The notes under the pieces were generated by a model. It was not told the DNA's origin, ran no database searches, and saw only the letters and a list, made by a program, of their open reading frames with translations. A DNA stretch of 35,504 nucleotides from Halieaceae bacterium (lineage in GTDB: Bacteria > Pseudomonadota > Gammaproteobacteria > Pseudomonadales > Halieaceae). The stretch is from positions 1 through 35,504 of the forward strand of contig JABHWT010000447.1 in NCBI GenBank assembly GCA_018657645.1. Reading direction: 5' to 3'. The first letter of the stretch is position 1. Every line of letters begins with the position of its first letter. The translations under genes and the position numbers were made by a program. Positions 5,832 to 33,438 of this stretch are shown one piece after another.

Positions 5832-5846
5832 GACTAAACTCTAGTC
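5832..5846. promoter_or_regulatory. Inverted repeat in the promoter region of the sensor-kinase pair
   Basis: GACTA-N5-TAGTC lies 46-60 bp before the GTG at 5892, just upstream of an AT-rich TATTTAAT stretch that could be a -10 region. The remaining sequence from 5665 to 5891 shows no gene. Operator function is a guess. Confidence 0.3.
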
Positions 5847-5891
5847 ATCCTTACTATTTAATAAGCAGATTAGGTAACCAGAGCAGGTACG

Positions 5892-8800
5892 GTGAGAAGA
5901 CACAATCTGTTAGCGTTATTATTTTCTCTATGTGTCCCATTAGATTCCTTTGCGGTCTCATCAGGAGATTACCATTTTGGGCGAGCTCCTTTTAATTCAA
6001 TGCTCACCCAGCTAGCGGTGAGACAAACCTTTCAAGACTCACATGGTTTCCTTTGGTTTCTCACTCAATCTGGCATTAACGTATATGATGGATACTCCGT
6101 TACACCGTACAAGTATTCGATTAGCAAAGCTGGATCTATTAGCCATAGTTCTGCTACCGGCATCATTGAGGATAAGAGTGGAGTCATTTGGATAGCGACC
6201 GAGAGCGGTCTTAATCGCTTCGATGCGGCCTCACAAACTTTCGAAGTATTCAAAAGCCGTAGAGGAAAGGATTTTCAATCACCAGCATCAGACACCATTT
6301 ACGCAATTTTTTGCGATAAGCAGGGGTTTATATGGCTTGGATATGAGAATGGATTCAGTAGCTTGGACCCCGAAACAAAAAGATTTAAGCACTACTTCAG
6401 CGAAGCGGATACAAGGCTAAGAAACTTCTATGTCAGTAACTTTCAACAAACCGCCGATGGTCTGATTTGGATTTCAACTTTGGGTGCCGGATTGCTAGTG
6501 GTCGACCCAGAATCAAACACCCAAAAAAGATACAATTCGAGTTCGATTGAACTAATGGAAGTGCCCTCTGATTATCTCAGCACTATTTTTGTGAGTTCAG
6601 ACGATCAGATTTGGATTGGCACTCAAGACCAAGGATTAGCAAGGTTCGATCGAGAAAATGGCACTTTTGAGCAGTTTCGGCATGATCCAAGCAACTCTCA
6701 TTCCCTCCCATCAAACGAAGTATTCTCGATCATAGAGGACTCTGACAAGCTTATTTGGATAGCCACATCAGACGGATTTAGCATACTTGATCCAGACTCA
6801 CGTGGCATTCTACGGTTTAGTGATAGTACTCCAGGAATTACAAACAATAGAGTTCTGAGTATTTTCCAAAGCCAAGACGGAATGTACTGGGTAGGCACCT
6901 TTGATGGATTAACTCAGGGATCAAAATCTCTGTTTGCCAGAGTCGACCAGCAGTCCGGCCTCTCCAGTAACTCCATTAATGCATTTGCATCTGCCGCCTC
7001 TGACAGTCTCTGGGTAGGAACCGACGATGGGCTGAATCTTATTTCACAATATTCAGACCAGATTCAGGTTCTCAATGAGGCCACAACGCCAGCCATTTCC
7101 AGCCCGGGTGTCATGAGCCTATTTGCCGAGGGAAACACAGTATGGGTTGGCACAGCCAACGACGGCCTTAACAAAATTGACCTGGACAAGAAAGAAACCA
7201 CTGTTTACCACCACAGTAGATTAGATGATCAAACACTTGGGAGTAATGGTATAACCTCCATTTTGAGAGACTCATATGGCAATTTGTGGGTTGGCACCTA
7301 TGGCGGAGGCCTGAATCTGTTTCTGCCTGAAACTCAAACATTCCGGCGATATCGGGCGCACACCACGGATGAAAACTCGCTTAGCAGCGATTTCGTCATC
7401 GCTCTCGAAACAGATAGCAGTGGGAATTTGTGGATTGGGACGGAACAAGGCGGGCTCAATCGATTTAACTACCATACAGGGGCTTTCTCGCGATATAAAC
7501 ATACGCCAGATAATGCGGATAGTTTATCGAGTAATACGGCCTGGACACTCCATGTTGACCCCAGCGGCGACCTCTGGGTTGGAACACGCAGCGGTGGAGT
7601 AAATCGGTGGAAAGCCGAGGATATTGAAACGGACAGACCAAGGTTCATCCACTATTCCGAAAATATTGGTTTAAGCGCACCCAGCGTTTATGCCATTGAA
7701 AGTGACGCCACAGGAAGTATTTGGATTTCCCATGAAGGCGGGTTAACGCGGTTTCATCCCGAAACCCTGGTTACCAGGCATTATGATAAAAGCCATGGCC
7801 TGCAGGATAACGAATTTAATCACAACGCCGGCCATCAGGATGCAAATGGCAAACTGATATTCGGCGGCAACCGGGGCTATAACACCATTGACCCCGGTCA
7901 GCTTACTCAACGCTCTTTTGTACCCCCACTCCAAATTACCGATGTAAAAATTCTCAACGAGCACATAAATTTTGGTAAACCCTATTACGACCTGTCTGGA
8001 ATCGAACTCACGCACAAGGACTACTCCATTTCATTTGATTTCTCTTCCCTGGACTACACAAATCCGCTAAATAATCGGTACGAGTACCGACTGGCCGGTT
8101 TCGACCAACAGTGGTTTGAAGTCGAATCCGGGCGCCGCGGACAGGCCACATACACCAATTTACCTCCAGGCGCCTACACCTTACTGGTTTCGGGTTCCAG
8201 TTCCGATGGTCTAGTCTGGAACCGGGAAGGCATAAATCTGCCCATTCTCGTTCACCCTCCACCGTGGCTAAGTTGGTGGGCATATACTATCTATGCCATT
8301 GCCTTGGGATTACTATTGCTCTATTTGGTGACCCTGCAAAGGTTAAAATCCCGGCAGGCCGTCAATAGACAGCGGGAACTCGAACGCAAGGTAAACGAGC
8401 GCACAGTCGATTTACAAGACGCCAGGCGCTCCGCAGAGGAGGCGAACCTAGCCAAGTCTGACTTCCTCGCTACCATGAGTCACGAAATCCGTACGCCTAT
8501 GCACGGTATGATTGGCATGACTGAGCTACTCCTTCACACCGACCTGACGGAGCAGCAGCACCGCTTTGCCAACGCAGCGCACAACAGTGGCGAAGAACTG
8601 CTGACCCTGATCAACGACATCCTGGATTTCTCCAAAATCGAGGCCTCCAAAGTAGAGTTGGAAAGAGTTGATTTCGATCTGGTGGAGCTGCTCGACGAAA
8701 TTTGCTATTTGCAAGGCGAACCGGCCCAAAAGCGAGGTTTGTCACTTAACAATATATGCGATGCTTCCGTTCCCGCAAAACTCGTTGGAGACCCTGCAAA

Positions 8801-31123: not shown

Positions 31124-31161
31124 GATAGCGAGAATAATTTAATCAATGACGTGGGCTGGTG

Positions 31162-31195
31162 TTTATGCAAGGCTATAACTGGGGTATAAATAGCC
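31162..31195 (+). promoter_or_regulatory. Possible recN promoter with flanking inverted repeat
   Basis: TATAAA (31185-31190) could be a -10 region, with a poor -35 (TTTATG, 31162-31167) 17 bp upstream. GGCTAT (31171-31176) and ATAGCC (31190-31195) form an inverted repeat around it. No LexA box of the CTG-N10-CAG type is present. Confidence 0.35.
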
Positions 31196-31215
31196 AAACA
31201 GGACAATTTGCCTTT

Positions 31216-32874
31216 ATGCTCAGCCACCTCAGTATCAGTAATTACACCATCGTCTCCTCCCTGGAAATGGAGTTTGAGGCCGGCATGACCGTGATCACCG
31301 GTGAAACCGGGGCCGGAAAGTCCATTATGCTCGATGCCCTGAGCCTGTGTCTGGGCGACCGGGCCGACCCCAAGGCCGTGAGACAGAACTGTGATCGGGC
31401 CGAGATCAATGCCAGCTTTGATATCAGCGCTATTCCAGCGGCCCGCCAATACCTCGAATCTCGCGACCTGATTACCGGCGAGGAATGTATTTTACGCCGC
31501 GTGATCACAGCTGAGGGAAGAAGCCGCGCCTATATTAACGGCAGTGCCTCCACCTTGCAGGACTGTGCTGAGCTGGGCGCGATGTTAATCGACGTTCACA
31601 ATCAGCACGCCCACCAGTCGCTCCTGCGCAAGGAGGTACAGCGCCAGTTACTCGACGCCTTTGCCAACCTGCACAACAGCACCCGGCAACTGGAGCAGAT
31701 TGCATCGGACTGGCTTCGCACCCGACGCGAACGGGAAATGCTGCTTGGCGCCAGCGACGACCACGGCGCTCGTATTCAGCTCCTGTCCTATCAAATTAGC
31801 GAATTGGACGAATTAGCCCTGGCCCCGGACGAACTGGCGGCCCTGGAGAAAGAGCAGAAGACCCTGGCCAATGCCGAGGAGATTTTGCAATCTGCTCACC
31901 GGGCCCTGGAACTATGCGAGGCGCAGGAAGCGGGTACACGACAGGCACTGCAACTACTGCAGAGTGACGCACATGTTGCCCAAACAGCCGCAAACGCAAG
32001 AGATCTGCTGGACTCAGCGGCCATTCAACTCAACGAAGCCCGGGATGAAATTCAGCGTTATATCGACACCGTGAAAATCGACCCACAGCGACTGGAGAGC
32101 GTGCAGAGAAGGTTAGAGCTTGTTTATGACATAGCCCGCAAACACAAGGTGAAGCCGGAGCAACTGACAACCCTGCACACGAGCCTGCAAAGTGAAATTC
32201 AAGGACTGGCCGACAGCAGCGAGCGCCTGGATGAATTTGAGCAACAAATGGCAGACCTGGCCAGCCGCTACCAGCAGGCCGCCTCAAAACTGAGCAAACA
32301 GCGCCGCAGCGCGGCCAAAAAGCTGGTAAAGAAAGTGAGTGTCCAACTGGCCACCCTGGCCATGGAACAGTGCACTTTTGAGATTGCGCTCCACCCCAGG
32401 GCATCCGACGACCCGCACCCCCATGGGCAGGAGGATATCGAATTTCTGATCAGCACCAATCCCGGCGCCTCGCCCCAGTCATTGGGGAAAATAGCTTCGG
32501 GCGGCGAACTATCCCGTATCAGCCTGGCTATTGGCGTAGTGACCGCCAGTACCGGGGCCGTATCCAGTATGGTTTTCGACGAGGTGGATGTGGGCATCGG
32601 TGGCGCCGTGGCTGAAGTGGTGGGAAAACTACTGCGCACCCTGGCCGACCAGGCGCAGGTGCTGTGTGTAACCCATTTGCCCCAGGTAGCGGCCCAGGGC
32701 CACCACCATTTACAGGTAACCAAAACCAGTGCTGACAGCTCGGTGGAGGCTACTTTGAGCCGGCTCGACCAACAGAACAAGGTTCGCGAAATTGCCCGTA
32801 TGCTGGGCGGTATAAAGGTGACCGAGCAGTCGCTGGCTCATGCCCGGGAAATGGTCGAAAGCTCCGCTACCTAA
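31216..32874 (+). CDS. recN: DNA repair protein RecN
   Basis: This 552-residue SMC-like ATPase (553 in E. coli) takes part in recombinational repair of double-strand breaks. The N-terminal Walker A is in MTVITGETGAGKSIMLDAL, followed by NQHAHQSLL and long coiled-coil stretches (about residues 150-370). The C-terminal ATPase half has ASGGELSRISLAI (signature) and MVFDEVDVGIGG (Walker B), then CVTHLPQVAAQGHHH. The ATG at 31216 (MLSHLSISNYTIV) gives the family N-terminus; an in-frame ATG at 31159 would add 19 unrelated residues. The gene diverges from hrcA and converges with fur. Confidence 0.97.
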   Translation: MLSHLSISNYTIVSSLEMEFEAGMTVITGETGAGKSIMLDALSLCLGDRADPKAVRQNCDRAEINASFDISAIPAARQYLESRDLITGEECILRRVITAEGRSRAYINGSASTLQDCAELGAMLIDVHNQHAHQSLLRKEVQRQLLDAFANLHNSTRQLEQIASDWLRTRREREMLLGASDDHGARIQLLSYQISELDELALAPDELAALEKEQKTLANAEEILQSAHRALELCEAQEAGTRQALQLLQSDAHVAQTAANARDLLDSAAIQLNEARDEIQRYIDTVKIDPQRLESVQRRLELVYDIARKHKVKPEQLTTLHTSLQSEIQGLADSSERLDEFEQQMADLASRYQQAASKLSKQRRSAAKKLVKKVSVQLATLAMEQCTFEIALHPRASDDPHPHGQEDIEFLISTNPGASPQSLGKIASGGELSRISLAIGVVTASTGAVSSMVFDEVDVGIGGAVAEVVGKLLRTLADQAQVLCVTHLPQVAAQGHHHLQVTKTSADSSVEATLSRLDQQNKVREIARMLGGIKVTEQSLAHAREMVESSAT

Positions 32875-32875
32875 C

Positions 32876-33020
32876 AGCAGCGTGTTGAAAAAGTCTCTTC
32901 CCGAGTGCAGTACGAGGCGTTTTCAGGGGAAAAAGCGGAGTTTATATGCCAATAAATGAGCATTTTGAGCCTGGAAACAACGAAGTAATGTGCTGCCAGA
33001 GGGTTTTTCAGCACGCTGCT
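32876..33020. mobile_element. 145-bp element with 17-bp terminal inverted repeats (MITE- or REP-like) between recN and fur
   Basis: AGCAGCGTGTTGAAAAA (32876-32892) recurs inverted at 33004-33020 with one mismatch. Further in, GTTTTCAGG (about 32919-32927) and CCTGGAAAC (about 32970-32978) pair with one mismatch, so much of the element can fold into a long imperfect hairpin around a loop of about 40 nt. It encodes nothing. It fills the gap between convergent recN and fur and includes the last bases of fur up to its stop, so it may also act as a two-way terminator. No target-site duplication was identified. Confidence 0.6.
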
Positions 33021-33438
33021 AGTCGTCGCTGCTTTTTCGCACATAGAGCACCAATGAGTGGTCTATCAACTCAAACCCATGCTCCTGTGCTATCTGACGC
33101 TGACGCTCTTCTATCAGGGAGTCGGAAAACTCGATAACCTCACCTGAGGACAGGCAGACCATGTGATCGTGGTGATCATCCTTGGCTATTTCAAACATTG
33201 AGTGGCCTGTCTCAAAATTATGCCGGGTCACAATCCCCGCCGTCTCAAACTGGGTGAGAACCCTGTAGACAGTGGCCAGGCCAACATCTTCGCCCGATTG
33301 CAGCAGGGCACGATACACATCCTCTGCGCTCATATGCCGACTGCCAGGATCCGCAGATTCGAGGATTTGCAGGATCTTGATACGCGGCAATGTCACTTTC
33401 AAACCCGCGTTGCGCAACTCTTGATTTTCGGCAGCCAT
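33019..33438 (-). CDS. fur: Ferric uptake regulator Fur
   Basis: The 139-residue metal-dependent repressor of iron uptake genes has the winged helix (about 1-85: GLKVTLPRIKILQILE, DVGLATVYRVLTQFETAGIV) and the dimerisation/metal domain with DDHHDHMVCLSSGEVIEF. Only the first Cys of the CxxC seen in E. coli Fur is kept (CLSS), as also in Pseudomonas Fur, so structural zinc bound by that pair is not expected. AGGA lies 5 nt before the ATG. It is divergent from bamE (115 bp between starts), the usual fur-omlA arrangement. The fur stop codon touches the end of the 145-bp repeat element. Confidence 0.97.
   Translation of the reverse strand: MAAENQELRNAGLKVTLPRIKILQILESADPGSRHMSAEDVYRALLQSGEDVGLATVYRVLTQFETAGIVTRHNFETGHSMFEIAKDDHHDHMVCLSSGEVIEFSDSLIEERQRQIAQEHGFELIDHSLVLYVRKSSDD

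Follow-up and report, generated by a model that had tools for sequence, protein, structure and literature searches.

The 145-bp stretch between recN and fur at positions 32876-33020 of the window (the whole stretch of DNA analysed here, 35,504 nucleotides of contig JABHWT010000447.1 from a Halieaceae bacterium) is a multicopy repeat with inverted arms and very probably represents a non-autonomous IS5-type transposable element (MITE). We regard it as a real MITE, ordinary in its probable movement and unusual in its interior, and what most deserves pursuit is its core, which is found across phyla with differing ends. The usual picture of a MITE is a deletion derivative of a single parent insertion sequence (IS) in which the ends are conserved; here this is reversed, the interior being conserved over phyla while the ends change.

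The element in the recN-fur gap

A reading made from the sequence alone had placed a terminal-inverted-repeat element in the recN-fur gap, and the anatomy of the stretch confirms it. The inverted arms (32876-32898 and 32998-33020) comprise 23 nt each, are 87% complementary and are separated by 99 nt; their outer 17 nt match the 17-bp ends with one mismatch described earlier, and coding capacity is indeed lacking, as no listed frame of 80 aa lies inside 32876-33020. Because target copies can be recognised at the borders, the ends of the element move by 2 bp, and the element proper spans 32878-33018, i.e. 141 bp with 18-bp inverted ends. The window reads ACCTAA-CAG, then the element, then CTAGTCG, so that CTAA at recN stands against CTAG at fur and the presumed duplication is inexact here. 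Slippage of a CAG unit would suffice to account for the extra bases at the left end, and a point change for the G/A difference. The neighbours had been named correctly, as judged by NCBIfam models, and the right end does more than adjoin the fur stop codon: the stop at 33019-33021 (minus strand) sits within the terminal CTAG. The features are as follows.

31159-32874, plus strand: recN, DNA repair protein RecN (NCBIfam NF008121, E 1e-175, and reading frame; stop TAA at 32872-32874; start codon putative)
32871-32874, no strand: left target copy CTAA, containing the recN stop (the overlapping stops of relatives are CTAG or CTAA in 7/23)
32875-32877, no strand: three extra bases CAG between target copy and inverted repeat (sequence compared with own-genome copies; absent at the right end)
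32878-32895, plus strand: left terminal inverted repeat CAGCGTGTTGAAAAAGTC (16/18 bases as in the left end of an IS5-family transposon)
32899-33000, plus strand: core, a conserved imperfect hairpin of 102 nt (covariance model R1, 104.6 bits, E 3.0e-27, the window copy itself being among the 20 sequences that built R1)
32940-32957, plus strand: apical hairpin GTTTAT-ATGCCA-ATAAAT, whose stem is conserved most (lowest pair G-U in 101/101 sequences with letters there)
33001-33018, minus strand: right terminal inverted repeat, CAGCGTGCTGAAAAACCC on the minus strand (sequence and inverted-repeat search)
33019-33022, no strand: right target copy CTAG, containing the fur stop (sequence and relatives)
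33019-33438, minus strand: fur, ferric uptake regulator (NCBIfam NF006999, E 3.5e-59; stop TAG at 33021-33019)

We looked for empty sites in relatives. The fur gene was found in 59 of 61 family genomes and the best 30 loci, the window among them, were fetched; in six of the other 29 the fetched stretch contained no recN, leaving 23 for comparison. The element is absent from all 23, in which recN and fur lie together and are convergent as in the window. That the element was inserted between the two genes follows from these relatives. The stop codons of recN and fur overlap in 7/23 relatives, as CTAG in four and as CTAA in three (e.g. ACCTAGTCTTCC in L113), and are 2 to 327 bases apart in the remaining 16. 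These overlaps lend good support to the view that the element entered where the stops of recN and fur overlapped, an arrangement that would have been present in the window's own lineage before the insertion. As CTAG and CTAA each give a stop to both genes (left TAG/TAA, right TAG), such an insertion is cheap. The earlier suggestion that the element was inserted without harm is accordingly plausible, the target probably being the overlap of two stops and both genes retaining a stop; little damage would be expected wherever the target itself is a stop codon on one or both strands that is duplicated and thus restored. In the proposed mechanism an IS5-family DDE transposase, supplied in trans, would have recognised the element by its 18-bp inverted ends and inserted it at the CTAG/CTAA of the overlapping stops, duplicating the tetranucleotide, after which recN and fur would each have retained their stop; we infer both the mobilisation in trans and the kind of transposase. 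The recN-fur gap of a relative from another genus (G021, L123) holds a different palindrome-like stretch with ends near GCGGGCGAG and without a match to the core model, and the gap may therefore tolerate insertions.

The plus strand of the element folds as a single long hairpin (-63.8 kcal/mol versus -38.2 ± 4.15 kcal/mol in shuffles, z = -6.2), and the minus strand reaches -42.4 kcal/mol (z = -3.8). A long hairpin between convergent genes, with an A-run and a T-run in its arms, is what one would expect of a plain bidirectional recN/fur terminator that evolved in place and is immobile. A consensus scan of 32700-33200, however, found no canonical intrinsic terminator (G+C-rich stem followed by a T run), and a single copy kept at the same site in relatives, which the sequence-only reading had named as favouring such a terminator, is not what we observed: the genome contains 24 matches to the core, and the site is empty in every relative compared. 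As an account of the element's origin the in-place terminator is already refuted, and we leave it hardly any probability. A terminator function shared by recN and fur, as the sequence-only reading proposed, may have been acquired later. Searching Rfam with the region and 19 related loci gave no match above the curated threshold. A snoRNA match overlapping the element of L234, which came from a laxer Rfam search of five loci (E up to 5), scored 25.8 bits versus a gathering score of 95 and was taken as chance.

Copies in the own genome and related transposons

The own genome assembly (5.4 Mb, 491 contigs, 88.9% complete) gave 62 alignments at E <= 10 when searched with the element region, and it contains further near-full copies with 75-97% identity to the window copy. 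The 19-bp end matched 68 times at up to three mismatches, the reversed control pattern not once, and the covariance model of the core produced 24 matches (150 of 809 candidates scored). The model is specific, as all nine matches below E 1e-8 in 435 kb of this genome are known copies and a tenth, at E 0.21, falls at a known fragment. The genome-wide count that had been proposed as a check thus shows a multicopy element with about two dozen copies. Thirty own loci were fetched, of which 22 near-full copies were examined and eight short fragments (L021, L024-L030) omitted; with L014, L015, L018, L022 and L023 also set aside, the 17 complete copies are 82.6-98.6% identical to a 144-base consensus, indicating that the family is not freshly amplified. 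The flanking sequence varies between copies. A core variant in which part of the apical region is swapped for a G+C-rich extra segment (L086, at 5838-6000 of own contig C361; L208; L232) is present in the own genome and in Litchfieldella.

The four-base borders of the 22 copies are CTAG on both sides in six, on one side in 14 and on neither side in two. Equal borders were found in seven copies (six CTAG, one CTAA), and the other 15 comprise 13 with unequal borders and two with one end missing. Taken alone, the own copies are compatible with a 2-bp TA duplication, as several fit N-TA/TA-N, as well as with a 4-bp duplication.

Nearly the same ends were found on transposons in another genome of the order, G052. 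There, two insertion sequences related to each other have left ends identical to CAGCGTGTTGAAAAAGTC in 16 of 18 bases. One of them (L479:832-2105) comprises 1,274 bp, has CTAA on both flanks and encodes a transposase of the IS5 family (NF033581, E 1.3e-75; DUF772 and DDE_Tnp_1); its relative in L494 has the borders CTAA/CTAG and a reading frame split in two. For IS5, duplication of YTAR, with CTAG the most frequent form, is described in the available text of two sources (PMC5493358, PMC10359306). The element thus resembles IS5-family insertion sequences in its nearly identical 18-bp ends and, as far as those same texts describe it, in the target CTAG/CTAA, but differs in having no transposase and in carrying a conserved hairpin that is missing from the insertion sequences of L479 and L494. 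Beyond the IS of L479, at a distance of about 880 bp, there is one weak match to the core (21.4 bits, E 2e-4), and miniature elements with similar ends also occur in G052 (L068, L078, L177).

The search for a parent transposase with the same ends, which had been suggested earlier, therefore succeeded in part: G052 holds an IS5-family insertion sequence with nearly the same ends, but no convincing one was found in the own genome. There, neither the end pattern nor 20 further stretches around end matches yielded a convincing pair of the element's ends around an insertion sequence, and searches by PF13358 and PF01609 returned no transposase gene with convincing matching ends; the sole DDE_Tnp_1 locus (L482) has different ends. 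One weak end pair, with two and four mismatches and 2,073 bp apart, was seen in L099. The proposal that the stretch is a MITE is nonetheless supported by its multicopy state, its inverted ends, the empty sites and the transposon with nearly the same ends elsewhere in the order.

A conserved hairpin core with changing ends

A first search of 58 genomes, including the own, gave a match in 15, and in distant genomes the inner part alone matched, while the arms differed yet still paired. The starting alignment comprised 20 sequences (five own, 15 from other genomes) and 28 pairs, 21 of them with changes on both sides, and the covariance model built from it was used for the scans of the order and the phyla. 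The core is present in genomes of Pseudomonadota, Bacteroidota and Desulfobacterales. Core matches were obtained in 100/244 genomes and 58/113 genera of the order, in 109/398 genomes and 43/213 genera of the phylum (own order included) and in 38/296 genomes of the phylum of an Alistipes genome; 10-16 candidates were scored per genome in the order and phylum scans, so that copy numbers are lower bounds. An exact search with the 24 fixed bases of the apical hairpin matched at least 120 stretches, and the 80 among the matches listed include Halomonas, Litchfieldella, Salinicola, Pseudomonas, Marinospirillum, Alistipes, Rikenellaceae, Flavobacteriales, Desulfobacterales, Thermodesulfobacteriota, Nitrosomonadales and others, the organisms being taken from titles and many being MAGs, whose bins may contain foreign contigs. 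All 21 genomes searched from these gave at least four core matches each. Counts per genome reach 108 in a Desulfobacterales MAG, 54 and 38 in two Alistipes, 43 in Halomonas elongata and 13 in a Flavobacteriales MAG, and since copies repeat within a genome, the explanation by stray contigs is weakened. Eight plasmid records matched at E <= 0.01, and a Halomonas copy searched against phages and E. coli gave no match. Two Halomonas copies (L368, L372), each from a different species, exceed the usual length by about 71 bp because a further hairpin-like segment interrupts the core stem at an identical position, and L160 (G245) carries two core elements (1313-1413 and 1501-1601) that point the same way and are 188 bp apart.

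Frames within 3 kb of the 80 named loci were clustered, and no helper gene in the form of a widely shared neighbour family was found near the copies. The two largest of the 15 clusters listed (27 and 17 loci) consist of frames overlapping the element, and the others comprise at most six loci and are, by eye, housekeeping genes or read-through frames. This bears on the idea that the repeats are of the REP/REPIN type and moved by a RAYT transposase, with which a palindromic, intergenic, many-copied element with a mismatched hairpin would agree. Apart from the element-overlapping frames, however, the loci share no such neighbour, and the copies have inverted ends with target duplications, making this the least probable of the explanations we considered.

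To compare the ends, copies with flanks were taken from five genomes, namely the best 20 of 108 in the Desulfobacterales genome G681, 18 of 27 in the gammaproteobacterium G687, 20 of 43 in H. elongata (G295), 12 of 29 in G688 and 9 of 15 in P. oryzagri (G686), of which 1/20 in G681, 9/20 in G295 and 1/9 in G686 were left out for want of a tested end. Copies in G681 have the ends CAGCCCGTTGAAAAAC and exact 4-bp direct repeats in 14/19 cases (ATAA, TTAA, GTAA, TTAG, CTAA and others), and those in G688, with the ends CAGGTTGTTGAAAAAG, have exact 4-bp repeats in 8/12, seven of them palindromic. In H. elongata the ends GAGGGTGTTTACAAA are flanked by 3-bp TNA repeats in 11/11 copies, the other nine of the 20 fetched having other or unclear ends; in P. 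oryzagri (ends GAGCCTGTTCACGATC) TCA repeats were seen in 3/8, and in G687 (ends GAACCTATCTCAAAAT) TA alone is repeated in 17/18. Across the five genomes, a single core is thus accompanied by ends and duplications of at least three classes. Further copies in H. elongata (L439, L440) have GGTCTTGTACGAAAAG-like ends, and a GGTCTTGTACGAAAAG-like end, with one mismatch per side, bounds an IS in H. halmophila (L478) whose transposase frame of 169 aa belongs to the IS5 family (NF033580, E 1.5e-45); the ends of an IS in P. oryzagri (L486) are similar to those of the L478 IS. The GAGGGTGTTTACAAA end resembles that of ISPsy19, given as an IS5-family member with a 3-nt duplication in the portion of PMC3189936 available. 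A search for a parent IS with GAGGGTGTTTACAAA ends in six Halomonas-group genomes (15 stretches, part of the matches) yielded only miniature copies, truncated ends and contig breaks. The core appears to have been combined with, or kept through the divergence of, several IS5-like ends, and gradual divergence of the ends within the IS5 superfamily is possible.

These data also bear on a MITE of the IS630/Tc1-mariner kind that duplicates TA alone. The unequal borders would suit it, with several own copies reading NTAG on the left and CTAN on the right, as would the TA-only duplication in 17/18 copies of G687 and a preference of IS630 for CTAG, which is stated in the title of a paper. On the other hand, the transposon with nearly the element's ends belongs to the IS5 family, G681 has the same class of ends and 4-bp direct repeats, several of them non-palindromic, and the only PF13358 gene found in the own genome (L327) has other ends. 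We therefore consider TA-only duplication improbable for the element in the recN-fur gap, the 4-bp reading leaning on the exact repeats of G681. The PF13358 (IS630-type) gene itself, at about 467-1626 of L327 (own contig C442), lies between TGTAGGTCGTCA repeats flanked by CTAG, inside an apparent transporter frame, and its ends are unrelated to the MITE.

The association with stop codons extends beyond recN and fur. In 13/22 near-full own copies the stop of a neighbour gene, called by coding score, lies within the border tetranucleotide. In 435 kb of the own genome, elements included, CTAG is found at 35 stops and at 132 intergenic and 220 intragenic positions, and comparison of the 13/22 copies with the 35/167 non-coding CTAG sites at stops gives p of about 1e-4, with two custom-made gene callers of slightly different thresholds for border stops and CTAG census. 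Neighbours are convergent at 8/22 copies versus 52/323 (p 0.02) and divergent at 1/22 versus 47/323 (p 0.16). In the five other genomes an open frame of 50 codons or more terminates at the border of 43/68 analysed copies (6/19, 14/18, 8/11, 8/12 and 7/8 copies). As a control, 136 copy sides had 48 stops in the 8-nt border window versus 15, 5, 8 and 7 in the four successive windows beyond it; four genomes show this excess, but G681 does not (6 versus 6, 4, 4 and 2). The stop-bearing gene lies at the right end, in core orientation, in 11/13 own copies (p 0.02), but G681 has the opposite tendency (left five, right one), and we draw no conclusion on the orientation of the ends for that reason. Selection against insertions within genes surely contributes to the stop-codon positions.

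For the structure of the core, 99 loci were hand-picked for diversity, 38 of them from the 80 loop-pattern loci. In the alignment of 102 sequences, which was fitted to the model and so favours pairing figures, 95.8% of the cells are paired. Changes on both sides were observed in 26/28 pairs versus 17.9 expected by shuffling, a value as high being reached in 0/500 shuffles, and shifting the pair partners along the alignment abolished the covariation signal. Among pairs whose commonest form is Watson-Crick, G-U was counted 114 times versus 37 for A-C, and 40 versus 12 times in the 38 sequences that were found by the loop pattern among the 80 listed loci and that all passed the model as well. As related sequences are not independent, the covariation and G-U counts overstate significance. 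The unpaired loops of the core are conserved, too.

Covariation could also result from repair of a DNA palindrome, one arm being copied onto the other, rather than from selection on a folded strand: the whole element is a near-palindrome, and arm copying likewise yields matched changes. Repair, however, would have no strand preference, yet G-U exceeds A-C about three to one, similarly in the loop-pattern set, and the conserved loops are unpaired, even if kinship makes the counts non-independent. We rate palindrome repair as rather unlikely. As it would prefer no strand, a folded single strand is seemingly under selection; the selected one seems to be the plus strand of the window, reading GCGGAGTTTA, and is likelier RNA than single-stranded DNA.

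A dispersed structured RNA or regulatory hairpin could have spread by virtue of its function, without a transposase, the ends being its lower stem, and the conserved loops, the covarying stems, the excess of G-U over A-C on one strand and the positions at gene 3' ends all agree with it. Against this, the ends are sharp and bear direct target repeats (14/19 in G681, 11/11 in G295), and transposons with similar ends indicate transposition, so that we hold spread by function without a transposase to be doubtful, although less so than palindrome repair. The structured-RNA and the transposition readings can be true together. The likeliest role of the core would be that of a single-strand hairpin, probably RNA at the 3' ends of the flanking genes, that makes insertions tolerable, putatively in the form of 3'-end protection or termination. 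Tentatively, and with a little less than even confidence, we propose that the core forms a module in its own right that folds strand-specifically and predates all of its ends, was repeatedly given IS5-type ends in at least three phyla and persists by landing on stops and by a useful or harmless fold (RNA or single-stranded DNA) at gene 3' ends. If this were true, the core would constitute a mobile 3'-end module with exchangeable transposon ends.

Relation to described repeats

The nearest described element is MITEPsy1 of Pseudomonas syringae, which, in the sections available of PMC3189936, is likewise small and has 18-nt ends similar to those of ISPsy2 (IS5 family), but differs in its length of 99-100 nt. 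According to the same sections it duplicates CTAG or YTAA and is reported to transpose, and relatives are suggested to be widespread (PMC3189936). Membership of the present family in the MITEPsy1 family was considered and rejected: an element with MITEPsy1 ends on plasmid pRSB105 (L502:31626-31724) has no core, and the present family is therefore distinct from MITEPsy1, although it would move in a similar way.

QMITE1 of Coxiella burnetii, compared by description, also combines variable ends with a conserved core, but varies within one genome and is described as a family unique to the species in the accessible part of PMC5896051. Repeats of P. fluorescens (R0, R2, R6, R178 and others) form hairpins, some with ends identical to those of a resident IS, and show a bias for tail-to-tail genes as described in excerpts of PMC2718517, the likeness being one of description and not of sequence.

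In the open-licence literature, supplements excluded, we found neither a paper containing the sequence motifs of the core nor a recognised description of a hairpin core that is shared across phyla and whose ends differ. Short palindromic repeats such as REP/REPIN, ERIC and Correia are dispersed intergenic palindromes without coding capacity. Setting them apart by description, we know of none among REP/REPIN, ERIC and Correia that joins one cross-phylum core to different transposon ends.

If the reading of one core with changing ends is true, it would offer a tractable case of a non-autonomous element serving several transposases, and one covariance model would annotate many repeats that are at present unrecognised. 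It could also explain spurious small proteins read through copies. Open frames that read through the element, e.g. with a KMLIY stretch, occur in the 80 named loci and could be annotated as small hypothetical proteins.
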